From: Planctomycetota bacterium
Lineage (GTDB): Bacteria > Planctomycetota > UBA1135 > GCA-002686595
NCBI GenBank assembly: GCA_022447405.1
Contig: JAKVCE010000002.1
Location: forward strand, 1 to 32,324
Direction of reading: 5' to 3'
DNA: 32,324 bases
The notes beneath the pieces are model-generated. The model searched no databases. It was not told the DNA's origin and worked only from the letters and a program-made list of their open reading frames with translations. A program made the position numbers and the translations under genes. Below, in pieces: positions 1,120 to 32,324 of this stretch; within the stretch, counting starts at the first letter, position 1; each line of letters begins with the position of its first letter.

Positions 1120-1968
1120 ATGTGGCACAAGACACTCGGCGGCGGCGCCCTCGCGCTCGCCATCTTCCTCCTGGGCGCGCCCGCTGGCGCAGCCCCTCAA
1201 TGATGCGGTGGAGGCGGTGCCTCCTTCGGTGGCGGCGCGGGCTTCTCTGGCCCGAGTCTCCCCGGCAGCGGCACCAACTCCGGAACGTCCAGTTGGACGC
1301 GAGGAAAGACGAGCAACTCACGCCTGCAAGCTGATTGGCAGACGCCGACGGTCAAAGCAGAGAAGAGCCTGGAGCTCCAAGCCGCGCTGAAAGAGCTGCG
1401 CGGTGACGACCCCCGCCCCTTGCTCATTCTCCGTGACTGCGAAGGCTGCAAGAACAAGGAGGGCGACCTCCTGCAGCGCACCCTCGTCGAGGAGCGCACC
1501 TTGCTCGCCACTGGCTGGTTCAACTGCGTGCGCTTCGGCCACGAGGTGATGGAGCCCAGCCACCCCTTCCACGTCATCTTCGACCACGAGCGTCACCCGC
1601 ACATCGCGATGTCGTCCTGGGATATGAAGACCTTCGTCCAGGTCCACCGCTCCAGCCCGAAGGAGCTCTGGAAGGCGATGAAGCGCGTCCTCGGTAAGGA
1701 CTACAAGAAGAGCGCTGAGTCGGCGATGAAGAACATCACCAAGCTCCTCAGCGAGTACGACGCCCTCGACGATCGCGAGAACGCGCTCCAAGAGCAGCTC
1801 AACACCAAGCGTGAGCGCGGCAAGGACGCGCGCGCCAAGGTCCTCGAGAAGGAGCTCGCTGAGCTCGCAGAGGAGCGTGAAGAGCTGATCGCAGACGAGA
1901 TGAAGCTGCGTGACCTCGGCTTCAAGAAGATCAAGGAGCGCGAGAAGCTCTTGGGCGAGAACGCCTGA
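1120..1968 (+). CDS. Secreted thioredoxin-fold-like protein with in-frame TGA (candidate selenoprotein, or disrupted gene)
   Basis: ATG at 1120 gives MWHKTLGGGALALAIFLLGAPAGAAPQ, then TGA at 1201-1203, then the same frame stays open: CGGGGASFGGGAGFSGPSLPGSG...RPLLILRDCEGCKNKEGD...GENA to stop at 1968. The track shows only 1420-1968. Confidence 0.6.
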
Positions 1969-1990: not shown

Positions 1991-2020
1991 AAGGGGCGCG
2001 CCCGTTTGGGCGCGCCCCTT
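1991..2020 (+). terminator. Putative intrinsic terminator hairpin
   Basis: Perfect 13-bp inverted repeat aaggggcgcgccc-gttt-gggcgcgcccctt 23 nt after the stop at 1968, followed by tctctttgg; the U-tract is weak. Confidence 0.6.
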
Positions 2021-2059
2021 CTCTTTGGTCTCTGTGCCTCCTGGGCTTACCCTCAACCC

Positions 2060-3190
2060 ATGCGCCACCTAGCCTGCCTCGCGCTCAGCGCGCTCCTTGT
2101 CAGCTGCTCCTCCTTGGGGAGCTCGGCCACAGGCCTCTCTGGGTCGCTCGTCATCGCGGGCGGCGGGATGTCTTCGCGCTCACTGGAGGTGAGGGAGGCC
2201 TTCCTGGCGCGGAGGCTGAGCGGCGAGGTCGGCGTGATCGGCGCGGCGAGCTCAGGCCCTGAGGCGAGCGCAGCGCGGGGCGTGCGCGCGATGAACGAGG
2301 CGGCGGGCGCTGAGGTCGCCGTCGCGCTCCCCTTCAACGCGGGCGAGCCCGAGCTCGCGGATGACCCCGCGCTCGCCGCGAAGATCGATGGCTGCGGCGC
2401 GCTCTGGTTCACCGGCGGGAGCCAGTCACGGATCGTCGAGGCGATGCGCCCTGGCGGGAGAGAGACCTTGGCCTGGCGCGCTTGTGTGAGACTCCTCGAG
2501 CGCGGCGGCGTCATCGGCGGCTCCAGCGCGGGCGCAGCCATGATGTGCGACCCCATGATTCGCAGAGGGCGCAGCGCGAACGCCATGCGAGCGGGCGTCG
2601 GCCCGGAAGGCGTCGACCTCGGAGCAGGGATGGGCTTCTTCCCATGGGGGATCGTCGATCAACACTTCTTGGAGCGCGGTCGCTTCGGTCGCTTGGTCGT
2701 CGCGCTTGGGGAGACGGGCATCCGCCTCGGATGGGGGATCTCTGAAGACAGCGCGATCGTCGTCGACCGCACGACCGGGTGGGCTGAAGTGATCGGTTCG
2801 AGCGGCTTGGCGCTCTTTGACATGCGTGAGCTCCAAGTGAGCGAGGGCCGCTGGGAAGGAGTGGGCCTCTCGCTCTTGAGCTCTGGTGATCGCGTGAACG
2901 CGCTGACTGGGGAGGTCGTAGCGACCTCGGGCTCTACAGCGCGCGCTCCTTTGGGAGAGCCAGAGAGGGCGCTCGTTATGGAAGGGCTCTTCAACGCCGA
3001 GGCTCTGAAGCAGGCTGTGCATCAGCTGTTCGACACGCACCGTGAGAGGGCGCTCCTGCGAGATGGCGCGGAGGGCGCGCTCTTGCGTCGAGGCGCGAAC
3101 GCGCGGGCGTGGGTTCGACAGGGAGCCTCAGGTGCCGAGCAGATGAGCGCAGCTGGGCTGCGGCTCGATCTCTATCGCATCACCGAATGA
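2060..3190 (+). CDS. Cyanophycinase / peptidase S51-like lipoprotein
   Basis: Start at ATG 2060 (MRHLACLALSALLVSCSS; lipobox-like LVSC). Motifs SLVIAGGGMSSR, WFTGGSQSRIVEAM, GGVIGGSSAGAAMM (nucleophile Ser), IVDQHFLERGRFGRL are typical of cyanophycinase-like S51 proteins. The track start at 1910 would run through the upstream gene and hairpin. Confidence 0.8.
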   Translation: MRHLACLALSALLVSCSSLGSSATGLSGSLVIAGGGMSSRSLEVREAFLARRLSGEVGVIGAASSGPEASAARGVRAMNEAAGAEVAVALPFNAGEPELADDPALAAKIDGCGALWFTGGSQSRIVEAMRPGGRETLAWRACVRLLERGGVIGGSSAGAAMMCDPMIRRGRSANAMRAGVGPEGVDLGAGMGFFPWGIVDQHFLERGRFGRLVVALGETGIRLGWGISEDSAIVVDRTTGWAEVIGSSGLALFDMRELQVSEGRWEGVGLSLLSSGDRVNALTGEVVATSGSTARAPLGEPERALVMEGLFNAEALKQAVHQLFDTHRERALLRDGAEGALLRRGANARAWVRQGASGAEQMSAAGLRLDLYRITE

Positions 3191-5555: not shown

Positions 5556-7712
5556 ATGACGACGACTCAGGAGAGCAAGGCGGTCCGCTATCACGACATG
5601 GACGCGCTGCGCGCGACAGCGATGATCCTCGGGATCGCGCTGCACGGCGCGCTCTCCTTCGTGCCCTTCCCCTGGAGCGTCCAGGACAGCGAGCAGCACG
5701 AGGCCTTCGGCACCTTCTTCTGGGCGATCCACGGCTTCCGGATGCCGGTGTTCTTCGTGATGAGCGGCTTCTTCACCGCGATGCTCTGGCGCAGGCGCGG
5801 CCTCGGCTCGATCCTGAAGCAGCGCTTCCTGCGCGTCTTCCTCCCCTGCATGGTGGGGATCTGGACGATCTGTCCGCTGCAGGACTGGGCTGGTGGCTTC
5901 GTCTACACCGAGACGCCCCCAGAGTGGCCCTTCGAGGTGGAGGAGGAGACCCGTGTCCCCACCGAGGTTCAGGAGGTAGAGCGCGCAGAGAGCCTCCCGC
6001 TCGCGGCCAAGCTCGGCCAGCGCGCTGTGGTCGAAGAGCTCCTCGCTCGCGGGGACGACGTAGACACTCGGGATGACTGGGGCGCGACGGCGCTGCACTG
6101 GGCGGCGGTGACGAGCGAGGAGGAGATCGTCCGGACGCTCATCGAGGAGGGCGCGGACGTCAACGCGAAGACGGGGGACGGATCGCGTCCGCTGCACTGG
6201 GCGGCCTTCCTGGGTGAGCCTGTCATCGTGGAGCTCCTCTTGGAGGCAGGCGCAGACCCGAGCGTTCGGAATCAAAAGCGCGAGTCCCCGCTCGACACGA
6301 TCCGCGCGCCGTGGTCGGGAGAGATGGCGGGGGTCGTCAAGTGGGTCGCGGGCTTCATGGAGGTCGAGGTCGACGTCGACCGCGTCAGAGAGGATCGCCC
6401 GGAGATCGTCGCGCTCCTCGAGGCCACCGGCTTAAAGCTCGACCTCCCGAGCGCCGCTAAGCGCGGTGACCTAGACGCTGTGCGAGCGCTCCTTGAGGAG
6501 GGCGCCGACACCGAGGAGCGGATGGGGGACAAGAGCTCCGCGCTGCACTGGTCTGCTGTCCACGGTCACTACGAGGTCGTGGAGGCCTTACTCGAGGCTG
6601 GCGCGGATCCGAACGTCAGGTCCGAAGACGGAGGGACCCCGCTCCACTGGGTCGCCTTCCTGGGAGAGTCTGAGATGGTCGAGCTGCTCCTCGAAGAGGG
6701 GGCAGACCCGAACATCGCGAACTACAGCGGCCTGACCCCGCTCGACACGATCAGGCCCTCTTGGGATGAGCTCGAGGGGGTGACCCTGTTCTTCGCAGGG
6801 ATCATGGAGCTCGACCTGGACCTCGATGAGCTCAAGGAGGACCGGCCCGCGGTCGTCGCCGCGCTCAGTGCTGGCGGCGCAGAGGGCGGCGGCGGTGACG
6901 GCGACTTCGACCGCTGGATCTGGGGTCTGTTCACCGGAAACGTCTTCCACCACCTGTGGTTCCTCTGGTTCCTGTGCTTCTTCGTGGTGGCCTTCGCGGG
7001 CTACGCCTTCTTCGCGAGCGTCGTCGGCTTGAAGCGACTCCCGCGGGTGCTCATCAACTCGCCGCTGCGCTACCTCTGGCTCCTGCCCCTGACGCTCATC
7101 CCGCAGCTCATGATGCGCGACGGCCAGGTCGGCGGCTTCGGCCCGGACACGTCGACGGGCTGGCTCCCGTTCCCTCACCTGCTCCTCTACTACTGGGTCT
7201 TCTTCTTCTTCGGCGTCCTCTACCACGACACCAAGGAGGAGGACGACAAGGTCGGGAGCTGGTGGTGGCTGACCTTGCCGCTGGCCCTCTTCGTCGTCTT
7301 CCCGATCGGAACAGGCTTCTCATTCGGTGACTCGGGCTCGCTTGAGGAGGGCTTCTTCAGGGAGTCACAGCACCTCATCGCCTGCTCTTTCGAGGTGCTC
7401 TTCGTCTGGCTGATGATCTTCGGCTCGATGGGCTTCTTCCGGAGGTTCTTCAGCAGCGGGAGTCGTGTCATGCGCTACGTCTCCGACTCCTCCTACTGGC
7501 TCTACCTCGCCCACCTGCCGCTGATCCTGCTCGGGCAGTGGTTCGTGCGCGACTGGCCCATCTCACCCTTCATCAAGTTCCCGCTCATGTGCGGGGTCGT
7601 GACGGGGCTGCTCCTCCTGAGCTATCAGCTCTTCGTTCGCTACACGCCCATAGGGACCTTCCTGAACGGCAAGCGCGAGCGAACGGCTCAGGCGTCCGTC
7701 GCGGCGGACTGA
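5556..7712 (+). CDS. Acyltransferase-3-family integral membrane protein with two inserted ankyrin-repeat blocks
   Basis: N-term YHDMDALRATAMILGIALHGALSF...FRMPVFFVMSGFFTAMLWRRRG and C-term multi-TM ...YVSDSSYWLYLAHLPLILL are acyltransferase-3 / OpgC-like. Residues ~147-440 carry ankyrin motifs (GATALHWAAVTSEEEIVRTLIEEGADVNAKTGDG; TPLHWVAFLGESEMVELLLEEGADPNIANYSG). Confidence 0.9.
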   Translation: MTTTQESKAVRYHDMDALRATAMILGIALHGALSFVPFPWSVQDSEQHEAFGTFFWAIHGFRMPVFFVMSGFFTAMLWRRRGLGSILKQRFLRVFLPCMVGIWTICPLQDWAGGFVYTETPPEWPFEVEEETRVPTEVQEVERAESLPLAAKLGQRAVVEELLARGDDVDTRDDWGATALHWAAVTSEEEIVRTLIEEGADVNAKTGDGSRPLHWAAFLGEPVIVELLLEAGADPSVRNQKRESPLDTIRAPWSGEMAGVVKWVAGFMEVEVDVDRVREDRPEIVALLEATGLKLDLPSAAKRGDLDAVRALLEEGADTEERMGDKSSALHWSAVHGHYEVVEALLEAGADPNVRSEDGGTPLHWVAFLGESEMVELLLEEGADPNIANYSGLTPLDTIRPSWDELEGVTLFFAGIMELDLDLDELKEDRPAVVAALSAGGAEGGGGDGDFDRWIWGLFTGNVFHHLWFLWFLCFFVVAFAGYAFFASVVGLKRLPRVLINSPLRYLWLLPLTLIPQLMMRDGQVGGFGPDTSTGWLPFPHLLLYYWVFFFFGVLYHDTKEEDDKVGSWWWLTLPLALFVVFPIGTGFSFGDSGSLEEGFFRESQHLIACSFEVLFVWLMIFGSMGFFRRFFSSGSRVMRYVSDSSYWLYLAHLPLILLGQWFVRDWPISPFIKFPLMCGVVTGLLLLSYQLFVRYTPIGTFLNGKRERTAQASVAAD

Positions 7713-8899
7713 CTGACCGAGCGGTAAGCGTCTCGGAAGGTCTCGCCATCCGCTGCGCGCTCGAGCGCTTCCTTGGTCGCCTGCAAGGCAGGGTCGCTCA
7801 CGGCCTCTTCGAGCGCGGCCTCGTCGAAGGCGAGCGCATCGAGGAAGCGGGCGAGGAGCGGGAGGAGCTCGGTCGCTGTGTCATGGGCGCGGAAGAGCGG
7901 CGGCTTCACGAGCTGGAAGTCGCGGTGGTAGCCGCTCGGCAGGTCCTTGAGCGTCTCCATGAGGGCGGCGCGGTCTGCGATCATCCCGCGCGCCCTGCCG
8001 CGCATGAGCTCGATGAGGTCTGGGTTGCGCTTCTGCGGCATCAGCGAGCTCCCGGTCGTGAAGGCGACGGGCAGCTTCAAGAAGCCGAACTCGCTCGTGG
8101 AGAAGAGCCAGAGATCAGCGCAGAGCTTGCCGAGGTCCAAGGCGACGGCCTCGAGCGCCGTGAGGTAGGCGAGCTCGGCGCGGCCGCGGCTGTGCTGGGT
8201 GAGGGTGACGGGCTCCTCCGGCGCGTCGAAGCCGAGGCGCTCGGCGACGAAGGCGCGCTCCAAGGGGAGCGGGATGCCATAGCCCGAGCCTGAGCCCAGG
8301 GGACACTTGGAGATGCGCGCTTCGCATGCTGTGAGCTCGGCCGCGTCTGCGGCGAGGGCGGCGGCGTGAGCGCCGGCCCAGTCGGCGACCGTGGAGGGCA
8401 TCGCGCGCTGGAGGTGGGTGTAGCCGGGGAGCGGCAGCGCGCCCGCGCGCTCGGCGAGCTCGTTGAACGCAGCGGCGAGCCCGTCGAGGTGAGCGCGGGT
8501 CTCCTTCACGGCGTCCCGGAGCCAGAGGCGCATGTCGACGGCGACCTGGTCGTTACGCGAGCGGCCGGTGTGGAGGCGCTTGCCGTCCTCGCCGATGGCC
8601 TCCGTCAAGCGACGCTCCACGGCGGAGTGGACGTCCTCGTCCTCCGGACCGACGGTCCATTCGCCAGCGGTCCAAGAGGCCAGGAGGCCTTCGAGCCCGG
8701 CGCTGATGTTCGCGTGCGCGTCCTCGTCGATGACCCCGGCCTTCAAGAGCCCCGCCGCGTGCGCGAGGGAGCCCGTGATGTCGTGGCCGACCAGGCGTTG
8801 GTCCATGCGCCAGTCCTCACCGATGGTGAAGGCGAGCATGCCCTCGTCGATCGGCTCGCCGCGGTCCCAGACGGGGGGGTGGAAGCTGCGCTCTGTCAT
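7688..8899 (-). CDS. argH: Argininosuccinate lyase
   Basis: MTERSFHPPVWDRGEPIDEGMLAFTIGEDWRMDQRLVGHDITGSLAHAAGL...TGRSRNDQVAVDMRLWLRD...GSSLMPQKRNPDLIELMRGRA. Start at 8899, overlapping the upstream gene by ATGA. Confidence 0.95.
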   Translation of the reverse strand: MTERSFHPPVWDRGEPIDEGMLAFTIGEDWRMDQRLVGHDITGSLAHAAGLLKAGVIDEDAHANISAGLEGLLASWTAGEWTVGPEDEDVHSAVERRLTEAIGEDGKRLHTGRSRNDQVAVDMRLWLRDAVKETRAHLDGLAAAFNELAERAGALPLPGYTHLQRAMPSTVADWAGAHAAALAADAAELTACEARISKCPLGSGSGYGIPLPLERAFVAERLGFDAPEEPVTLTQHSRGRAELAYLTALEAVALDLGKLCADLWLFSTSEFGFLKLPVAFTTGSSLMPQKRNPDLIELMRGRARGMIADRAALMETLKDLPSGYHRDFQLVKPPLFRAHDTATELLPLLARFLDALAFDEAALEEAVSDPALQATKEALERAADGETFRDAYRSVSQSAATDA

Positions 8900-9987
8900 G
8901 AGGTGGCTCCTTCGAGCTGGAGCGACTCCAGGGAGGCTCCGATGACCCGGGTGTAGAAGGCGCAGCCGGCCTCGACCTCGCTGCGCAGGCAGAACTCGTC
9001 GGGGACGTGCGAGCGCGCGGTCTCGCCGGGTCCGCACTTCACGGCGGGGACTCCGGCGAGGAGCGCCATGTCACTCATGGTGGCGGAGCCCGTCGCCGCC
9101 TCTGCGCCTGCGGCCTTCATGCAGGCCTGCACGAAGGGGTGCTCGTCTCCTGTCTCGACCGGGCGCAGGCGCTCGGAGCGGATGGTGATCTTTGCTTGGG
9201 GGAGGCGCTCCTCCAAGAGCGCGACGCACTCGCTGGCTGTGTGCGGCGGTGCGAGGCGGCAGTCGAAGACAGCCTGGGCAGCGTCCGGCACGCGGTTGTG
9301 GCGGTCGCCCGCGTTGAGCTGGGTGCAGGTGACGGTGCTCGCGCCGAGGAGCGGGTGCTCCTCCTCGAGGGTCACGCACTGGGGGAAGCCGGCGAGGTCA
9401 TTCGTCGCGAGGAGCAAGGCGTTTGTGTGCTCGACCCGCCCCGCGTGGGCGGCGTGACAAGAGCTCCCTTCCCAGTCGGCCAAGAGGACGGCGAGGCCGG
9501 CCTGTGCGCGGACGACGCTGAGGCCTGTGGGCTCGCCGGTGATCGCGCCGTCGGGGAGGCCTGTGTGGGCGAGGATGTCTTCCATCCCGCGGTTCGTCGT
9601 CTCTTCACACGCTGTGATCGCGAGCTGCAGCGTGCCTGACGCGCCGCCCTGCTTCGCGAAGGCGAGCGCGCCCCCGATCATCCCGACCACCGCCGCGCCC
9701 GCGTCGTTGGCGCCGAGGCCGACGAGCTTCCCGTCCTGCCAGATCCCGGCGTAGGGGTCGGCGGTCCAGGAGGGGCCAGCGGGCACCGTGTCCATGTGGG
9801 AGTTGAGGAGCAGGGTGGGGCCAGGGCCGCGCTCGATCGTGACTAAGAGCGAGTCACCGACGCGCTCGACGTCGAGGCCGCGCTCCTGGAAGAAGCTCCA
9901 GAGGTGGTCGCGGACGCGCGCCTCGGAGCCCGAGGGGCTGGGGATGCGGACGAGCTCCGCGAGGAGCGCGCAGGGGTCGTAGCTCAC
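8896..9987 (-). CDS. argE: M20-family deacylase (ArgE/LysK/DapE-like), probable N-acylcitrulline/ornithine deacylase
   Basis: LVRIPSPSGSEARVRDHL...LLLNSHMDTVPAGPSWTADPYAGIWQDGKLVGLGANDAGAAVV...ACEETTNRGM: M20 metallopeptidase motifs in an arg operon. Confidence 0.85.
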   Translation of the reverse strand: MSYDPCALLAELVRIPSPSGSEARVRDHLWSFFQERGLDVERVGDSLLVTIERGPGPTLLLNSHMDTVPAGPSWTADPYAGIWQDGKLVGLGANDAGAAVVGMIGGALAFAKQGGASGTLQLAITACEETTNRGMEDILAHTGLPDGAITGEPTGLSVVRAQAGLAVLLADWEGSSCHAAHAGRVEHTNALLLATNDLAGFPQCVTLEEEHPLLGASTVTCTQLNAGDRHNRVPDAAQAVFDCRLAPPHTASECVALLEERLPQAKITIRSERLRPVETGDEHPFVQACMKAAGAEAATGSATMSDMALLAGVPAVKCGPGETARSHVPDEFCLRSEVEAGCAFYTRVIGASLESLQLEGATS

Positions 9988-10847
9988 GCCGTCACCTCCT
10001 CGGCTTCGCTGAGGATCAGGGTCCCCGCGCCTTGGTTTGTGTAGAGCTCGACGAGGAGGGAGTCCTCGTCCATCCCGCTCACGACGTGGACGCGCTCCAC
10101 GCCGCCAGCCATGGCGGCCTCGATGGCCGAGGTCTTGACGTGCATGCCGCCAGCGACGGTGCCGCCCTCGCGCTGCTCGAGGAGCTCGGCGAGGGAGAGG
10201 ACGCTGATCGCGGAGTGCGGGTCGGCGGGATCAGCGAGGACGCCAGCCGCTGAGGTCAGGAGCACGAGCTTCGCCGCGCCGAGCCCGACCGCGAGCTCGG
10301 AAGCCAAGAGGTCGGCGTTCACGTTCAGGTGTCCGCCTGCGCCGTCTGTTACCGGCGGCGCGACGAGGGGGATCACGCCCTCATCGAGCGCAGCCTTCAC
10401 GGCGCCCGAGTCGACGCTCTGGATGTCACCGACGAGCCCGAAGTCGACCTCGCCCTCGGAGGTCTGCATGGGCGGGCGCTTCGTCGCGACCGCCGCGCTC
10501 ATGGATGAGCTCGCGACAGATCCGCGCGCGCTGAGCGCGTCCGAGAGCGCCTGCGAGAGCTCCTGCGTGCTCTTCGTGAGCGCCTCGAGCGCCGCAGGAG
10601 TGGTCACGCGCCTGCCGTCAATGAAGACCGGCTCTTCGCCGAGCGCGCGCTGGCACTCGTTGGCTTGCGGCCCCGCGCCGTGGACGACGACGAGCCGCGC
10701 GCCCAGCGCGTGGACGCAGGCGAGCTGCTCTGCGATGCGGCGCACATGGCGCGGCTTCGCGAGGCAGGCGCCGCCCACCTTGACGACGAAGGTCTTGCCG
10801 CGGTGCTCGCGCACATGCGCGGAGGCGCGGATGAGGTCGAGGCTCAT
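9984..10847 (-). CDS. argB: N-acetyl(succinyl)glutamate kinase
   Basis: TFVVKVGGACLAK...LVVVHGAGPQANE...VDFGLVGDIQSVD...LNVNADLLASELAVGLGAAKLVLLTSAAGVL...GGMHVKTSAIEAAMAGGVERVHVV: amino-acid kinase family, ArgB-type. Confidence 0.9.
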   Translation of the reverse strand: MSLDLIRASAHVREHRGKTFVVKVGGACLAKPRHVRRIAEQLACVHALGARLVVVHGAGPQANECQRALGEEPVFIDGRRVTTPAALEALTKSTQELSQALSDALSARGSVASSSMSAAVATKRPPMQTSEGEVDFGLVGDIQSVDSGAVKAALDEGVIPLVAPPVTDGAGGHLNVNADLLASELAVGLGAAKLVLLTSAAGVLADPADPHSAISVLSLAELLEQREGGTVAGGMHVKTSAIEAAMAGGVERVHVVSGMDEDSLLVELYTNQGAGTLILSEAEEVTA

Positions 10848-11875
10848 GCGCCCACCTCCGCGGGGAGCTGGAGCGGGCTCTCACAGCCCGCAGGCCCGCT
10901 CAACATGTGCTCGAGGAGCGCGGTCTGGGCGTGCAAGCGGTTCTCAGCCTGTCGCTGCACGAGGCTCGCGGGTCCGTCGAGCACGGCGTCCGAGACGACG
11001 ACGTTGCGGCGCACGGGGAGGCAGTGCATGAAGCGCGCGCCGGCGCTGAGCGAGTCCGGCGTCACCTGCCAGTCTCGCAGCTCGAGCTTCTTGAAGCTCT
11101 CGCCAGCGGTGTCACCCCAGGACTCGAGGCTGCACCAGGACTTGGCGTAGACGATGTCCGCGTCCTTCGTGGCGCCAGGGTCGTTCGTGATCTCGAAGCT
11201 GCCGCCGCTCGCGTCAGCGAGCAGCTTGGCTTGGGCGATGACCTCCTCGTGGAGCTCCCAACCTTTGGGACAAGCGAGGACGACGTCCATCCCGCGCTGC
11301 GCTGCCATGCACACGGTGGAGTTGGCGACGGCGTGGGGGAGGGAGCGCGGGTGCCAGGTCCAGGTGAGGACGAGCTTGGCGCGCGTCGAGACCTTGAGCT
11401 GATCGAGGGTCGCGCGGTCGGCCAGGGCTTGGAGCGGGTGCCAGAGCGCGCTCTCCATGCTGACGACCGGCACGCTCGAGTGCTGGGCGAAGCCTTGGAA
11501 GACGTCATCGGCGAGGTCGGAGGCGAGGTCCTCGAAGCGCGCGAAGGAGCGCACGCACAGGGCGTCGACATAGCTCGAGAGGACCGGCGCCGCCTCGCGC
11601 ACGTGCTCGGCCGCGTCTGAGTCCATGACGACGCCGTCGCCTGTCTCGAGCTTCCACATGCTCGAGCCAGTGAGTTGCACGAGGTCGAGGCCGAGGAGCC
11701 CGGCGGCGCGCTGCATGGAGGCTTGGGTACGGAGCGAGGGCGCGAGGAAGAGGAGCCCGAGGGCGAGGCCCTCATAGCGCGCGGGCGTCGCGCCGCGGCG
11801 GAGCTCCGTCGCGCGGTTGGAGAGCGCCTCGACGAGGTTGGCGTCGAGCTCGGACAGCTTGTAGAGACCGTTCAT
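10844..11875 (-). CDS. argF': N-acetyl- or N-succinylornithine carbamoyltransferase (ArgF' type)
   Basis: MNGLYKLSELDANLVEAL...FLAPSLRTQASMQRAAGLLGLDL...VLTWTWHPRSLPHAVANS...MHCLPVRRNVVVSDAVLD...AENRLHAQTALL. WTWHPRxLPxAV and HCLPxRRN are AOTCase/SOTCase-like rather than ordinary OTCase. Confidence 0.85.
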   Translation of the reverse strand: MNGLYKLSELDANLVEALSNRATELRRGATPARYEGLALGLLFLAPSLRTQASMQRAAGLLGLDLVQLTGSSMWKLETGDGVVMDSDAAEHVREAAPVLSSYVDALCVRSFARFEDLASDLADDVFQGFAQHSSVPVVSMESALWHPLQALADRATLDQLKVSTRAKLVLTWTWHPRSLPHAVANSTVCMAAQRGMDVVLACPKGWELHEEVIAQAKLLADASGGSFEITNDPGATKDADIVYAKSWCSLESWGDTAGESFKKLELRDWQVTPDSLSAGARFMHCLPVRRNVVVSDAVLDGPASLVQRQAENRLHAQTALLEHMLSGPAGCESPLQLPAEVGA

Positions 11876-12999
11876 GCGGAGACCTCCAGGTTGGCGAGCG
11901 CTCCCTTGAGGCGCTCGGCGTGGGCGGGGGTGACGGTGAGAGAGGGGGAGAGGCGGACGATCTTCGGGTCCCAACAGGTCCCGACGAGGACGCCTTGCGC
12001 GAGGAGCGCGTCGCGCACCTCCTTCGCTGTGACGCCGTCAGTGAGCTCGAGCCCGAGGAGGAGCCCCGCGCCGCGCACGGCCTTCACCGGGCCGACCCCT
12101 GCGCACTCTTGGAAGGCCGCGCTCGCGGCGCGGACGCCCTCCAAGAAGCCGGGCTCGCTGAGGCGCTTGGCGGTCTCGGTGGCAGCGACCATCGCGAGCG
12201 GACCGCCCCCGAAGGTGGAGCCGAAGAGGTTCGTGGGCGCGCGCTCTGCGGCGGCCTCTTGCGCGAGGGTGAGTCCGAGGGGGAAGCCGGAGGCCGCGCC
12301 CTTGGCCGTGGTGATGACGTCTGGGAGGACGCCGAAGTGCTGCGCTGCGAAGGGGACGCCGAGGCGTCCGTTCGCGGTCTGCACCTCATCAAAGAGGAGC
12401 ATCGCGCCGGTCTCGTCGCACTTGGCACGCAGCGCCTCGAGGAAGCCTGCGGGCGGCTCGACCACGCCGGCGAGGGACTGGATCGGCTCGAGGATGCAGG
12501 CCGCGGTCGACTCATCGATCCCGTCCAGTGATCCCCACGGGCTGCGGGTCACCTCGAAGGGTGCGCTGGGGAAGCCCGGGGTGCGCGGGTCCGTGACAGC
12601 TGCGGCTGCTGCGGTGCGACCGTGGAAGGCGCCCTCGAAGCAGACGACGCCTTCGCGCCCGGTCGCAGCGAGGGCGAGCTTGAGCGCGTTCTCGTTGGCT
12701 TCGGCGCCGCTGTTCGAGCAGAAGATCTGCCAATCACCTGTCGGGAGGAGCGGCGCGAGCGCGGCGTTGAAGGCGTCGCGTGACTCGGTGTCGAGGAGGT
12801 TCGTGGTGAAGGAGAGCGCTCCCCACTGTCGGCTGAGCGCCTCACCGAGGGCCTCGTCACCAGCGCCGAGGGTGTTCACGCAGTGCCCGCCGTAGAGGTC
12901 GAGCACGCGCGCGCCGTCCGCGAGCAAGAGCTCGCAGCCCTCCGCTCCGACGACATCGAGCGCGATGCGCGCGTAGGCCGGCAGCTCTTTGAGGCTCAT
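11872..12999 (-). CDS. argD: Acetyl(succinyl)ornithine aminotransferase
   Basis: ADGARVLDLYGGHCVNTLG...FCNSGAEANENALKLA-type motif (IFCSNSGAEANENALKLALAAT), GAMLLFDEVQTANGRLG, TTAKGAASGFPLG: class III aminotransferase. Start ATG 12999 (or GTG 13005). Confidence 0.92.
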   Translation of the reverse strand: MSLKELPAYARIALDVVGAEGCELLLADGARVLDLYGGHCVNTLGAGDEALGEALSRQWGALSFTTNLLDTESRDAFNAALAPLLPTGDWQIFCSNSGAEANENALKLALAATGREGVVCFEGAFHGRTAAAAAVTDPRTPGFPSAPFEVTRSPWGSLDGIDESTAACILEPIQSLAGVVEPPAGFLEALRAKCDETGAMLLFDEVQTANGRLGVPFAAQHFGVLPDVITTAKGAASGFPLGLTLAQEAAAERAPTNLFGSTFGGGPLAMVAATETAKRLSEPGFLEGVRAASAAFQECAGVGPVKAVRGAGLLLGLELTDGVTAKEVRDALLAQGVLVGTCWDPKIVRLSPSLTVTPAHAERLKGALANLEVSA

Positions 13000-14051
13000 C
13001 AGCACACCCCCAGGCCCGCGGTGGGCAGTCCGGTCGTCTCGGGGAGGCCGTGCATCAGGTTCAGGGCTTGGACGGCCTGACCTGAGCCGCCCTTCAGGAC
13101 GTTGTCGATGCAGCAGGTCACGTGCAGCCAGCCGTCGCGCTCGACGAGGCTCAAGGCGGCGCGGTTGGAGCCGACGATGGCGCGCAGCTCAGGCGCTGTC
13201 TCTGCGTCGAAGGAGGCGAAGGCGCAGTCGTCGTATGCGCTGGAGTACGCGGCGGACGCGTCGGCCTGCGTGACGCCCTCTCTGAGTGGCATGCTCGCCG
13301 TGAGGTGGATGCCGCGCGCGAAGGGGCCAGAGTGGGGCATGAGCTGCACGCTCGCCTCGGGGCAGGCCTGCAAGAGCTCCGCCTCGTGGCGATGGCCGGT
13401 GCGCGCGTAGGCTTTGAAGTTGCCGTGGCGATGAGGGTGATGCGTCGTGGCCTTGGCGGTCGCGCCGCTCCCCGAGGAGCCCGTCACGGCGTTGCAGAGC
13501 CACGCGGAGTCCGTGGAGACCAGGCCGCCCTCGAAGGCCGGGACGCAGGCGAGCTGCATCGCGGTGGCGAAGCAGCCGGGCGCTGCGACGCGCTTTGAGG
13601 TGGCGACCGCTTCGCGGTCGTGCTCGACGAGACCGTAGGTCCAGTCATCGAGCGTCGACGGTGCGGGGTGCTCCTTGCCGTAGACCGATGCGTAGGTGTC
13701 TGCGTCCGCGAGGCGGAAGTCTGCGGAGAGGTCCACGACCATGAGCTCGCTGGCGGCGTTGCCGAGCGCGGCCTCGAGCTCGAGCCAGGCCGTCGCTGAC
13801 TCGCCGTGGGGCAGCCCGAGGACGAGGGCGCAGGGTCCGTCTTGGAGCGCTGAGGTGATCGCCTCGCCTGCGTCCTCCTTCCTGAGGAGTGGTGCCGCGT
13901 GGGTGAGGTTCGGGTGGAGGTCACAGACGGTGCCTTCCCCGCTGCGCGTGATGGCGCCTGCGAGTTCGAACTCAGGGTGAGCCTCGACGAGGCGCATGAG
14001 CTCACCAGCGAGGAGGCCGCTGGCTCCGTAGACGAAGAGGGGCGTGCTCAT
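12999..14051 (-). CDS. argC: N-acetyl-gamma-glutamyl-phosphate reductase
   Basis: FVYGASGLLAGELMRLVEAHPEFEL...VVDLSADFRL...VAAPGCFATAMQLA...TGSSGSGA...HRHEAEL...GPFARGIHLTA. Confidence 0.93.
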   Translation of the reverse strand: MSTPLFVYGASGLLAGELMRLVEAHPEFELAGAITRSGEGTVCDLHPNLTHAAPLLRKEDAGEAITSALQDGPCALVLGLPHGESATAWLELEAALGNAASELMVVDLSADFRLADADTYASVYGKEHPAPSTLDDWTYGLVEHDREAVATSKRVAAPGCFATAMQLACVPAFEGGLVSTDSAWLCNAVTGSSGSGATAKATTHHPHRHGNFKAYARTGHRHEAELLQACPEASVQLMPHSGPFARGIHLTASMPLREGVTQADASAAYSSAYDDCAFASFDAETAPELRAIVGSNRAALSLVERDGWLHVTCCIDNVLKGGSGQAVQALNLMHGLPETTGLPTAGLGVC

Positions 14052-15118
14052 GTGAGGACTCCTTCCACCTTGGCGATGGGTGAGACCGCAGGCGTGACAG
14101 CCGCTGCGAGAGAGGCCGCGTCTAGGAGGGCGTTGTGGGCGGGGATCCCGAGGTCCTCTGTGCAGTAGCGGCGCCCGACCGGGGTGTCGGTGACCGGCCC
14201 GCTGATGACGGTGGGAGAGAGCGCGAAGCGCTCACTCAAGATCTTCGCTGCGCCCCAGGCTCCGACCGGGTCCGAGGCGCACAAGACGATGGCGGAGAGC
14301 GCGGCCCTCAGCCCGCGGTCTGCGAGCAGGGTGTGGACGCCATAGGTGCCCAAGAGCCCGTCGCCCATCTCGAGGACGATCACGTCAGGCTCGCTCTCGA
14401 CGAGCGTCGCGAGGAGGGAGTGCGCGGCCGCCACAGCGTTCTGCTCGTCCGTCGTGACGACGCCGAAGTCGGTGAAGATCATCGCAGGTGAGGCGCCGCA
14501 GTCCGCCATGGCGAGGACGTCGCGGCGCAGGGAGACGCCGGTGAGCTTGCCCGCGGCGACCTTCAGCCCGCTGTGGACCAGGCTCGTGATGAGCACGCTC
14601 GCTGCTGTGGTCTTGCCTGAGTCCATCGAGGTGCCGAGCAGGCAGACGACGGGCGGCAGCTCCGCGGGGAGCGGGGCGGCGGGGAGGGCGGCCTTCGTCA
14701 CATCGGCGGGCTCGCCGCGGCGGCGGTCTGCGTCGGAGTAGTGGACGATGGACCCGAGGACCTCGAGCTCGAAGGGCTCGCCGACGCCGGGCACGGTCTC
14801 GGCGCCTGCGCCGATCACGCCGCCCTTGTTGAGGAGCTGGAGGTGATCGCCGACCTGCACCGTCTCGGGGACTTGGCCAGAGAAGCCGTGCAGCGCGTCG
14901 CGGTGTCCGAGCGCGCCGGCGATCACGTCGCCGGGGTGCAGGCGCACGAAGCGCCCGTGGACATCCTCGAGGGTGTCGTACGAGGACTTGGCGTTCAGGA
15001 CGCGCGCGGCGATGACAGTGCCCGCCTGCGCAGGGATCTCTTTTGAGAGGACCGCGTTGCGCGCGAGCTCCGTGTGCTTGGTGACGGAGGCGATCTTGTC
15101 GAGGACGCAGCGTCTCAT
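14048..15118 (-). CDS. P-loop NTPase (DUF1611/MobB/BioD-like C-terminal half) with unassigned N-terminal domain, embedded in arg operon
   Basis: Walker A VVCLLGTSMDSGKTTAASVLITSLVHSGLKVAAGKLTG, Walker B-like DVIVLEMGDGLLGTYG; N-terminal ~130 aa (GTVIAARVLNAKSSYDTLEDVHGRFVRLHPGDVIAGALGHRDALHGFSGQVP) not recognised. ATGA overlaps with argG and argC. Confidence 0.75.
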   Translation of the reverse strand: MRRCVLDKIASVTKHTELARNAVLSKEIPAQAGTVIAARVLNAKSSYDTLEDVHGRFVRLHPGDVIAGALGHRDALHGFSGQVPETVQVGDHLQLLNKGGVIGAGAETVPGVGEPFELEVLGSIVHYSDADRRRGEPADVTKAALPAAPLPAELPPVVCLLGTSMDSGKTTAASVLITSLVHSGLKVAAGKLTGVSLRRDVLAMADCGASPAMIFTDFGVVTTDEQNAVAAAHSLLATLVESEPDVIVLEMGDGLLGTYGVHTLLADRGLRAALSAIVLCASDPVGAWGAAKILSERFALSPTVISGPVTDTPVGRRYCTEDLGIPAHNALLDAASLAAAVTPAVSPIAKVEGVLT

Positions 15119-16311
15119 GCGTGCACCTCTTCCTTTTGGCCAGCGAGGCGGTGCAGCCTGCCGGGCTCAGCGAGGATGCGCGCGAGGCCGACGGCGCCGC
15201 GCGGGTCTGCGCCCGTCGCCGCGCGCTCGCCGTACTTCGCGTCGCTCGCTGCCATCATGGAGTGCGGAGACTCGAGGCCGGTGACCGTGACGTTCCTGTC
15301 CGCGATGGAGATGTGGACTGTCCCGGTGACCTGCGTCTGGGTTGAGGCGAAGAGCGCTTCGAAGTCGCGCAGGCTGGGGTCATGGAAGAGCCCTTGGTGG
15401 AGCTTGCGGCCGTACACATCAGCGAGGTGGTCCTTCCAGAAGCGCTGCTCCTCGGTCAGGACGAGCTTCTCGAGCTCGCGGTGGGCGCTGAGCAGGATCT
15501 CTGCGGCGGGCGCCTCATAGGCGATGCGGCCCTTGATGCCGAGCACGGTGTCCCCGAGGTGATAGCCGCGGCCGACGCCGAGCGCTCCGCCGGTCTGGTT
15601 GAGGGTCTCGACGAGGGTGACCGGGTCCATGGGGGCGCCGTTGATGGAGACAGGGACGCCGCCCTCGAACTGGATGTCGAGCTTCGCATGACCTGCGCCG
15701 CCCTTGGTCCAGCACCAGCCCTCCTCAGGCAGGGGCTCTTCGCTCGAGAGGAGCACGCCGCCGCCGATCGTGAGGCCCCACAGGCCCGCGTTCACCGAGT
15801 ACTCGCCGCCGGCGGGAGGCAGCTCGTGACCGTGCTCCTGGAGCCAGGCGCGCTGATCGTCGCGGCTCGGCATCTCGTCGCGCACCGGCGCGAGGATCTC
15901 AAGACCCGGCGCACAGATGGCGAGCGCTGCCTCGAAGCGGACCTGGTCGTTGCCGGCGGCGGTGCAGCCGTGGGCGAGGGCGTCGAAGCCCTCCTCTAGA
16001 GCGAGCGCCGCGAGGAGTTCGGCTTGGAGGCTGCGCTCGGCGGCGACTGAGAGGGGGTAGGTGCCGCCGCGGCGGACGTTGCCCGCGATGAGCCAGCGCA
16101 GGACGTCCTCGAAGAGCTGTAGACGCGCATCGATGAAGCGATGCTCGCTCGCGCCGAGGGCGAGCGCGCGGGCGGCGATGGCGGTCCGCTCTTCGGCGTC
16201 CATGCCGCCGCAGTCGACGGTGGCACAGACGACATCGTGCCCGTCACTTGAGAGACGGGCTGTTAGGTAAGAGGTGTCGAGACCTCCGGAGTAGGCGAGG
16301 AGGGTGCGCAT
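15115..16311 (-). CDS. argG: Argininosuccinate synthase
   Basis: MRTLLAYSGGLDTSYLTARL...LAHGCTAAGNDQVRFEAAL...EYSVNAGLWG: ArgG nucleotide-binding and substrate motifs. Confidence 0.95.
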   Translation of the reverse strand: MRTLLAYSGGLDTSYLTARLSSDGHDVVCATVDCGGMDAEERTAIAARALALGASEHRFIDARLQLFEDVLRWLIAGNVRRGGTYPLSVAAERSLQAELLAALALEEGFDALAHGCTAAGNDQVRFEAALAICAPGLEILAPVRDEMPSRDDQRAWLQEHGHELPPAGGEYSVNAGLWGLTIGGGVLLSSEEPLPEEGWCWTKGGAGHAKLDIQFEGGVPVSINGAPMDPVTLVETLNQTGGALGVGRGYHLGDTVLGIKGRIAYEAPAAEILLSAHRELEKLVLTEEQRFWKDHLADVYGRKLHQGLFHDPSLRDFEALFASTQTQVTGTVHISIADRNVTVTGLESPHSMMAASDAKYGERAATGADPRGAVGLARILAEPGRLHRLAGQKEEVHA

Positions 16312-16368
16312 GCTGTTGGGGTGTGTGTGGTGGGGGCGGTGTTGGGGAGAGACGGGATCGCGGCGGGA

Positions 16369-16797
16369 TCAGAGCAGGTCATGGACCAGCTTGATCACCG
16401 CCTCGCCTCGTCGCTGGCTCTCGACAGCGACGAAGATGGTGTCGTCACCTGCGACGGTTCCGACCAGGCCGTCGAACTCTTCTTCCTCTAAGGCGCGCGC
16501 GATGGAGCTCGCAGCGCCCGGCTCTGAAGACAAGACGACGAGGTTAGGGCCAGCGGCCTCTGCGCCGCGGAGGAGGGGTTGGAGCGCCTCGAGACGCGTG
16601 ACCCGGTCTGTCTCAAGGACGACATAGCGTCCCCCTCGCTTGACGGCCCCGAGGGCGCGCAGGTCTCGCGATAGCACCGGCTGCGTGCTCTCTACGCCGG
16701 CAGCCTTCAGGAGCGACAGGAGCTCTTGCTGGCTCGCGACAGCGTTCTCTGTGAGCAGCGCGCGGACCTGCTCGCGGCGTTCTTTTACTGCGACCAT
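16369..16797 (-). CDS. argR: Arginine repressor
   Basis: MVAVKERREQVRALLTENAVASQQELLSLLKAAGVESTQPVLSRDLRALGAVKRGGRYV...LVGTVAGDDTIFVAV: ArgR wHTH and C-terminal GTxAGDDTI motif. Confidence 0.92.
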   Translation of the reverse strand: MVAVKERREQVRALLTENAVASQQELLSLLKAAGVESTQPVLSRDLRALGAVKRGGRYVVLETDRVTRLEALQPLLRGAEAAGPNLVVLSSEPGAASSIARALEEEEFDGLVGTVAGDDTIFVAVESQRRGEAVIKLVHDLL

Positions 16798-30760: not shown

Positions 30761-32324
30761 GTGGTTCGGAACGGAAAGTCCGCCGTCGCGCTCACCGCGT
30801 GGCTCGCGCTCTCGCTCCTCTCTGGAGAGGCGAGGGCGCAGGAGACCGAGGTGCTCACGACCTCGAGTTGCGTGCTCTGCCACGAGGGGATCGAAGAGAT
30901 GCACCCTGGGCTGGACCTCTCCTGCGTTGACTGTCACGGGGGCGACAACACCAAGCGGAACAAGTTTGAGGCGCACGTGCAGCCCTCGCGGCAGCGGCCA
31001 GATGACGAGCGCGTCGCGGCCTTAGATGAGGACCTGCGCTGGCGCCGCTTCGTGAACCCGATGGACCTGCGCATCGTGGACAAGACCTGCGGGACCTGTC
31101 ACCCAGACGAGCTCAAGAAGCTCGAGTCCAGCCTCCACGCGACGACCGCCGGTCACCTCTCCGACGGTCACTACGAGATGGGCCTCACGAAGAAGAAGGG
31201 GTCGCGCTTCTCAATCTTCAGCGTCTCTGGGATGGGGATCGATGAGGGGGAGGTCGACAGCTTGGTGCAGATCCCTGGCTTCCGCTCTGATCGCGATGAA
31301 GGCGAGCTCGGGACGCACTTCGCAGACCTCGCCCGCAAGGAGTGCATGCAGTGTCACCTCTACTCCGAGGGGCGCGCTGTGCGCGGGCGCGTCGGCTTTG
31401 ACGGCGACTACCGCGGAGAGGGCTGCGCCGCTTGCCACGTGCCTTACGCGACGGACGGCCTCTCAGACAGCGCGGACCGCAAGGCCGTGCGCACCGAGCC
31501 CGGCCATCCCTGGCGCCATCAAATGACCCGCGCGCCGAAGACAGAGACCTGCGTCACCTGTCACTACGGCGACGCCTCCATCGGCCTCAACTTCAGAGGC
31601 CTCAGCCAGCTCCCGCCTGGCGCGCCGGGCGGGCCAGACATCCCCGGCACGACTGACACCCTCCTCAACCGGACCTTCTACATCAACGACGAGGAGATGA
31701 CGCCGCCGGACGTCCACCACCAGCGCGGCATGCACTGCATCGACTGCCACACGGTGAACGACGTGATGGGGGACGGCGAGCTGCACGGGCAGATGGAGCA
31801 CGCGGTGGAGATCTCCTGCGAGGGCTGCCACGGGACGATCGATCGGGTGGCCTCGCTGAGGACGGAGCGCGGGGTCAAGCTCTCAAACGTGAAGCGCGAG
31901 GGCGATGAGGTCTGGCTGACGAGCAAGGTGACGGGCGAGCGGCACCCGGTGACACAGGTGAAGCACATCGTCGACCCAACTCACGACAAGTACAACCCAG
32001 AGGCGGCGCGGGCGATGACCGGCGACCACGCCAAGCTCGAGTGCTACGCGTGTCACTCTGGCTGGAACCCGAACTTCCTCGGCTTCCACTTCGACCGCAA
32101 CGAGTCCTTCACCCAGCTCGACCTCCTGAGCGGCAGGCAGACGCCCGGCCGCGTCACGACGCAGGAGAAGGTCTTCTCGACCTGGAAGAGCTTCTACGCC
32201 GGCTGGAACGAGGCTGGGAGGATCGCGCCCTACATGACGGGCTTCTCCACGATGGGCTCGGTCTCGAACAAGGACGGCGAGCGCTTCATCGACCAGGAGA
32301 TGCCGGTCACCGCCGCTGGGCTCT
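30761..32324 (+). CDS. Multiheme cytochrome c, at least 9 CXXCH in window, C-terminus truncated
   Basis: GTG at 30761, 6 nt after the previous stop with AGGAG just upstream; signal VVRNGKSAVALTAWLALSLLSGEARAQ. In-frame CVLCH, CVDCH, CGTCH, CMQCH, CAACH, CVTCH, CIDCH, CEGCH, CYACH. Open to the right edge, so missing from the ORF track. Confidence 0.9.
   Translation, partial: MVRNGKSAVALTAWLALSLLSGEARAQETEVLTTSSCVLCHEGIEEMHPGLDLSCVDCHGGDNTKRNKFEAHVQPSRQRPDDERVAALDEDLRWRRFVNPMDLRIVDKTCGTCHPDELKKLESSLHATTAGHLSDGHYEMGLTKKKGSRFSIFSVSGMGIDEGEVDSLVQIPGFRSDRDEGELGTHFADLARKECMQCHLYSEGRAVRGRVGFDGDYRGEGCAACHVPYATDGLSDSADRKAVRTEPGHPWRHQMTRAPKTETCVTCHYGDASIGLNFRGLSQLPPGAPGGPDIPGTTDTLLNRTFYINDEEMTPPDVHHQRGMHCIDCHTVNDVMGDGELHGQMEHAVEISCEGCHGTIDRVASLRTERGVKLSNVKREGDEVWLTSKVTGERHPVTQVKHIVDPTHDKYNPEAARAMTGDHAKLECYACHSGWNPNFLGFHFDRNESFTQLDLLSGRQTPGRVTTQEKVFSTWKSFYAGWNEAGRIAPYMTGFSTMGSVSNKDGERFIDQEMPVTAAGL

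Follow-up and report, generated by a model that had tools for sequence, protein, structure and literature searches.

A candidate exported selenoprotein with an N-terminal Sec-Cys pair, and its relatives with tandem UGA codons in Planctomycetota

The window, by which we mean the whole 32,324 nt stretch of DNA analyzed here, comes from a draft Planctomycetota genome that is 71% complete and consists of 578 contigs. Near its start is a gene that opens with ATG at 1120, is interrupted by an in-frame TGA at 1201-1203 and then stays open until a TGA at 1966-1968 (Table 1). An earlier note, made from the sequence alone, had described an ATG, one TGA directly after a signal peptide and an open frame to 1968, and re-reading of the sequence found this description to be exact. 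The same note remarked that without readthrough the body would start weakly. The sole start listed for the body frame in the ORF list is indeed TTG 1420, which falls within the folded domain.

Table 1. Features of the candidate selenoprotein gene, with positions in the window.
Feature	Position	Strand	Basis or remark
Whole putative selenoprotein gene	1120..1968	+	Translation; 282 residues if codon 28 (TGA) is taken as Sec
Signal peptide, codons 1-27, MWHKTLGGGALALAIFLLGAPAGAAPQ	1120..1200	+	Sequence; likely cleavage near AGA|APQ
In-frame TGA, read as Sec28	1201..1203	+	92 distinct family genes have TGA here; SelA/SelB/SelD/tRNA-Sec in genome
Cys29 (TGC), second dyad residue	1204..1206	+	Most relatives have TGA there
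Gly-rich linker	1207..1323	+	AlphaFold pLDDT 45-61 up to residue 60; probably disordered
Candidate SECIS hairpin GGAGGC-GGU-GCCUCC	1210..1224	+	Loop 12 nt after TGA; congener retains the 15-nt stem via a G-U pair
Thioredoxin-like domain, residues 69-194	1324..1701	+	AlphaFold pLDDT mostly >90; weak Foldseek matches
C107-E-G-C110, thioredoxin-type CxxC (DCEGC)	1438..1449	+	Invariant in alignment A2; absent from distant relatives
Cys136 of W-F-x-C motif	1525..1527	+	Invariant in alignments A1 and A2
C-terminal helical hairpin, residues 199-264	1714..1911	+	AlphaFold pLDDT 94-98
Terminator-like inverted repeat and T-rich tail, 3′ of gene	1993..2027	+	Sequence, judged by eye

Adjoining the gene is a region encoding a lipoprotein-like protein (2060-3190) whose match to peptidase family S51 stays below threshold (19.7 bits against a cut-off of 23.9). 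Judged by eye from the ORF list, 5556-7712 has the look of an acyltransferase-type membrane protein with an ankyrin-like repeat block in mid-protein, an unusual arrangement. From the translations only, a run of genes on the minus strand (7688-16797) resembles an arginine biosynthesis cluster and ends in an ArgR-like regulator. The window closes on an exported protein with many CxxCH-like motifs (30761-32323), probably a multihaem cytochrome, which extends past the window end.

The gene of a congener is 75% identical and preserves the ATG, the TGA and the frame. The two signal peptides share 25 of 27 residues (dN 0.044, dS 0.239), the bodies have a dN of 0.20 and a dS of 0.62, and the gene flanks are alignable at only ~41%. 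Judging by these dN/dS values, purifying selection acts both before and after the TGA. One genome of the same genus (92% complete) is without the gene, which indicates that it is dispensable.

The earlier note had read the UGA as selenocysteine (Sec) and had pointed to Sec genes as a check. All of them are present in the genome from which the window derives: selB (293 bits), selD (336 bits, with one in-frame TGA of its own), tRNA-Sec (74 bits) and selA (280 bits, a partial match). The selD gene (L178, contig C59) shares its contig with tRNA-Sec, and a hairpin with a GGUCC loop was seen by eye ~32 nt downstream of its TGA. Of the 61 related genomes in the order, every one scored above the cut-off for tRNA-Sec and 58 did so for selB. 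As Sec use is universal in the order, comparing presence or absence of the gene with that of the Sec genes is uninformative here.

A homologue was found in 45 of these 61 genomes, nearly always with an in-frame TGA at this place after the signal peptide. Reading the DNA of these homologues together with 79 named loci gave 92 distinct genes in which the signal peptide is immediately followed by a dyad with TGA, so the upstream frame is a feature of the relatives as well, and Cys and Sec interchange at the codon in question. The dyad is UU in 59 of the 92, all with tandem TGATGA, and UC, as in the window gene, in 25. The others are UG (3), UR (2), CU (2) and UP (1), and in six genes a single Sec has neither Sec nor Cys beside it. 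The UC and CU members place Cys at either dyad position, and two homologues (L052 and L042) have a Cys near the dyad position and are without Sec. A tree built from 89 bodies requires 13 or more changes of dyad state, which means that Sec and Cys have repeatedly replaced one another. Two complete chromosomes, Pla86 and Poly30 (the latter Saltatorellus ferox), both encode a UU dyad (L081 and L125, respectively).

L153, which lies on a short contig (C405) of a genome from another family (G170), is very closely related to the window gene; the contig is likely a contaminant. Three sequences labelled Kuenenia, Singulisphaera and Roseibacillus (L097, L129 and L140) branch among those of the order in the tree and are probably from mislabelled drafts.

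Bacterial SECIS elements have been modelled as hairpins that carry a G within the first two positions of the loop, lie 16-37 nt after the UGA and have a folding energy of -7.5 kcal/mol or lower (PMC13188914). A hairpin fitting this model follows the TGA in 80 of the 92 genes, compared with 36 ± 4 (maximum 47) when synonymous codons were shuffled within each gene in 60 rounds, and its spacing is 18-25 nt in 73 of the 92 compared with 17 ± 3.4 in the shuffles; as these counts and those of base pairs take relatives as independent, their significance is somewhat overstated. The same scan in control windows in the body gave 9-24. In 44 genes the loop region includes AGTT, which occurs in 2% of background windows. 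It mostly lies 24 bases past the first T of the TGA, and is exactly there in 31 UU genes. The commonest class of hairpin, the AGTT class (n = 30), has a covariation score of 0.386 versus 0.161 ± 0.029 in shuffles, a value reached in 0 of 500, and its covariation also exceeds that of slid partners. The Pro-Ser-Trp or Ala-Ser-Ser found in the linker at the AGTT spot look like by-products of this RNA motif.

The hairpin of the window gene is atypically close to the TGA relative to the family, and this is the weak point of the case for this gene. The best candidate, GGAGGC-GGU-GCCUCC, is spaced 12 nt from the TGA, outside the 16-37 nt of the model (PMC13188914), and ranks at 0.13 among shuffles. 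An alternative fold has a UUCGGU loop 21 nt after the TGA. Shuffled versions of the stretch fold as well or almost as well (z from 0.65 to -1.77), and a search of Rfam with 1100-1400 of the window returned chance matches only. Because its own hairpin does not fit the SECIS model cleanly, we base the reading of this UGA as Sec on conservation and not on the hairpin.

We weighed three other accounts of the TGA. If it were a true stop, the product would be a short signal-peptide leader, with the body made separately or by low-level readthrough without Sec. The weak SECIS candidate of the window gene is what this account would expect, but the alternation of TGA with Cys among relatives and the nearly fixed spacing of hairpins after the TGA in the family are not, and a start at TTG 1420 would remove the first part of the domain; we regard a true stop as very unlikely. 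A lone TGA in one draft genome could come from a sequencing error, or from true nonsense mutation of a gene in decay. However, the homologous TGA recurs in many genomes, which makes sequencing error untenable, and its presence in 92 distinct genes, complete chromosomes included, along with selection on both sides of the codon, leaves next to no room for a nonsense mutation either. Reassignment of TGA to an ordinary amino acid in the source organism would also produce an open frame, yet the window gene itself terminates with TGA and the Sec machinery is complete, so the chance of this is negligible.

Given the Sec genes, the conservation of the TGA with Cys interchange, and hairpins beyond what the codon-shuffle controls produce, the original reading of the UGA is well supported, and the UGA at 1201-1203 is very probably decoded as Sec. 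From this evidence we infer that selenium is actually inserted into the protein. The placement of a Sec-Cys pair near the mature N-terminus, also proposed in the earlier note, holds for the window gene, and in most relatives the corresponding pair would be Sec-Sec.

The AlphaFold model, computed with 52 sequences (mean pLDDT 83), starts with a signal helix and a linker of low confidence, followed by a thioredoxin-like domain and then a long hairpin of helices. A strand at residues 101-105 is followed by C107-C110, placed as in thioredoxins. Foldseek ranks the DsbD C-terminal domain, the UAS domain and AGR2/3 highest (E about 0.1, probability 0.8-0.9) and returned no match with E <0.001. The thioredoxin-like body suggested from the sequence is thus borne out by the predicted strand and CxxC, and by these matches at the E-values given. 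A PDB sequence search with the family profile found coiled coils only, and one with a wider superfamily profile found weak matches to disulphide isomerase and TXNDC12 (E 0.01-0.04). DsbD, UAS and AGR2/AGR3 structures in the PDB share the fold of the body at 12-15% identity but, to our knowledge, are without an N-terminal Sec arm or a C-terminal helical hairpin.

Searches of Pfam and NCBIfam gave no match of the family over a curated cut-off. Standard gene calling stops at TGA, which would explain this. The thioredoxin-like selenoprotein family NF041383 (VPGUxxT) bears some likeness, as its VPGU resembles the APGUU/VPGUU of many relatives here. Membership was rejected: the genome yields a single match, at a different locus (32.8 bits, cut-off 275), and NF041383 was not among the matches listed for 34 family members. 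A lipoprotein is not supported either: a lipobox has a small residue ahead of the modified Cys, and the residue before the dyad is Gln in the window gene and most members, and Gly in the other large class.

Beyond the order, the family profile matched in 28 of 151 Planctomycetota genomes and the wider-set profile in 63 of 151, although weak matches of the latter may be other thioredoxin-like proteins. Searches of viral contigs for relatives of the window gene found none. The distant members have a signal peptide, Sec (UC, UG, UGU, UU or CU), a body and a C-terminal helical region, often with a motif of the CCAGUUUGG type after the TGA. In the wider family, tRNA-Sec was above the cut-off in 22 of 23 genomes tested. 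No CxxC is present in the bodies of the distant members. In alignment A3 only two columns are invariant, and one of these is the first dyad position. Because these homologues keep the Sec without the CxxC, the N-terminal Sec is the more widely conserved of the two and forms the core of the family, whereas the CxxC belongs to certain lineages. Four body homologues (L160, L164, L166 and L168) are without Sec or a Cys pair at the N-terminus, and three of them sit in genomes with a strong tRNA-Sec match.

Mammalian thioredoxin reductase, a flavoenzyme that is not exported, has a C-terminal Gly-Cys-Sec-Gly arm. Here, too, vicinal chalcogens are carried on a flexible arm flanked by Gly, but at the opposite end of the protein, and the likeness is one of analogy only. 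Selenoprotein L has the motif UxxU. Its two Sec are expected to form a diselenide, as in a UU dyad, but they are spaced and inside the fold rather than adjacent at an exported N-terminus. A work on Selenoprotein L as a diselenide redox motif is listed among the references of PMC2874816. Vicinal Sec and Cys are known in KCU-star, SaoC, HgcA and MbdU (CU) and in a CopZ-family form (GxUC) (PMC13188914); the Sec is beside Cys as it is here, but the protein families are different. Among the 119 prokaryotic selenoprotein families inventoried in 2026 there is no Sec-Sec motif and no family of the same make-up, and a text search of that paper found no mention of Planctomycetes (PMC13188914). The open-licence literature, with subscription papers, preprints and supplements outside the scope of the search, gave no description of the family of the window gene or of tandem UGA in bacterial genes.

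In combination, these results point to an exported selenoprotein with an N-terminal dyad on a flexible arm and a thioredoxin-like body, belonging to a Planctomycetota-wide family, a reading based on sequence comparison and structural modelling to which we give a probability of roughly 0.8. SelB and Sec-tRNA(Sec) would decode the UGA at 1201-1203, helped by an RNA hairpin a short way 3′ of it. Once the signal peptide is cleaved off, the Sec-Cys pair would sit within a few residues of the new N-terminus, and the flexible Gly-rich arm would connect it to the thioredoxin-like domain with its CxxC and C-terminal helical hairpin. On this swinging arm the dyad, as a selenenylsulfide or diselenide, may exchange electrons with the CxxC of the body or with other exported thiols. 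The most likely function would be extracytoplasmic thiol/diselenide redox chemistry with the dyad on the flexible arm; taken by itself, the case for a redox role of the dyad is evenly balanced.

Instead, the dyad might act outside the cytoplasm as a trap for oxidants or for metals and metalloids such as Hg, Cu or As, and the protein would then not be a thiol-disulfide enzyme. The conservation of the N-terminal Sec in distant members whose body is without the CxxC fits such a trap, and families with vicinal Cys-Sec include the mercury-related or metal-binding HgcA, SaoL and MbdU (PMC13188914). Against this, the CxxC and C136 are nearly invariant within the order of the window (alignment A2), as a thioredoxin-type redox chain predicts, and no recurring metal gene was seen in the 5 kb flanks, nor any other consistent neighbour or conserved operon. 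We consider a trap possible but rather doubtful, and redox exchange by an exported selenoprotein remains our preferred reading.

For the family as a whole, we think it likely that a phylum-wide group of exported proteins uses two adjacent UGA codons and one downstream hairpin to place Sec-Sec at the mature N-terminus, a natural case of tandem Sec insertion in bacteria that would create a new diselenide or selenenylsulfide arm. If this is true, a large group of exported selenoproteins has been overlooked across Planctomycetota. The group would provide many natural cases of UGA-UGA decoding and would allow one to ask in what way one SECIS acts for two codons in a row. The chemistry of adjacent Sec-Sec would also become testable in a natural protein.
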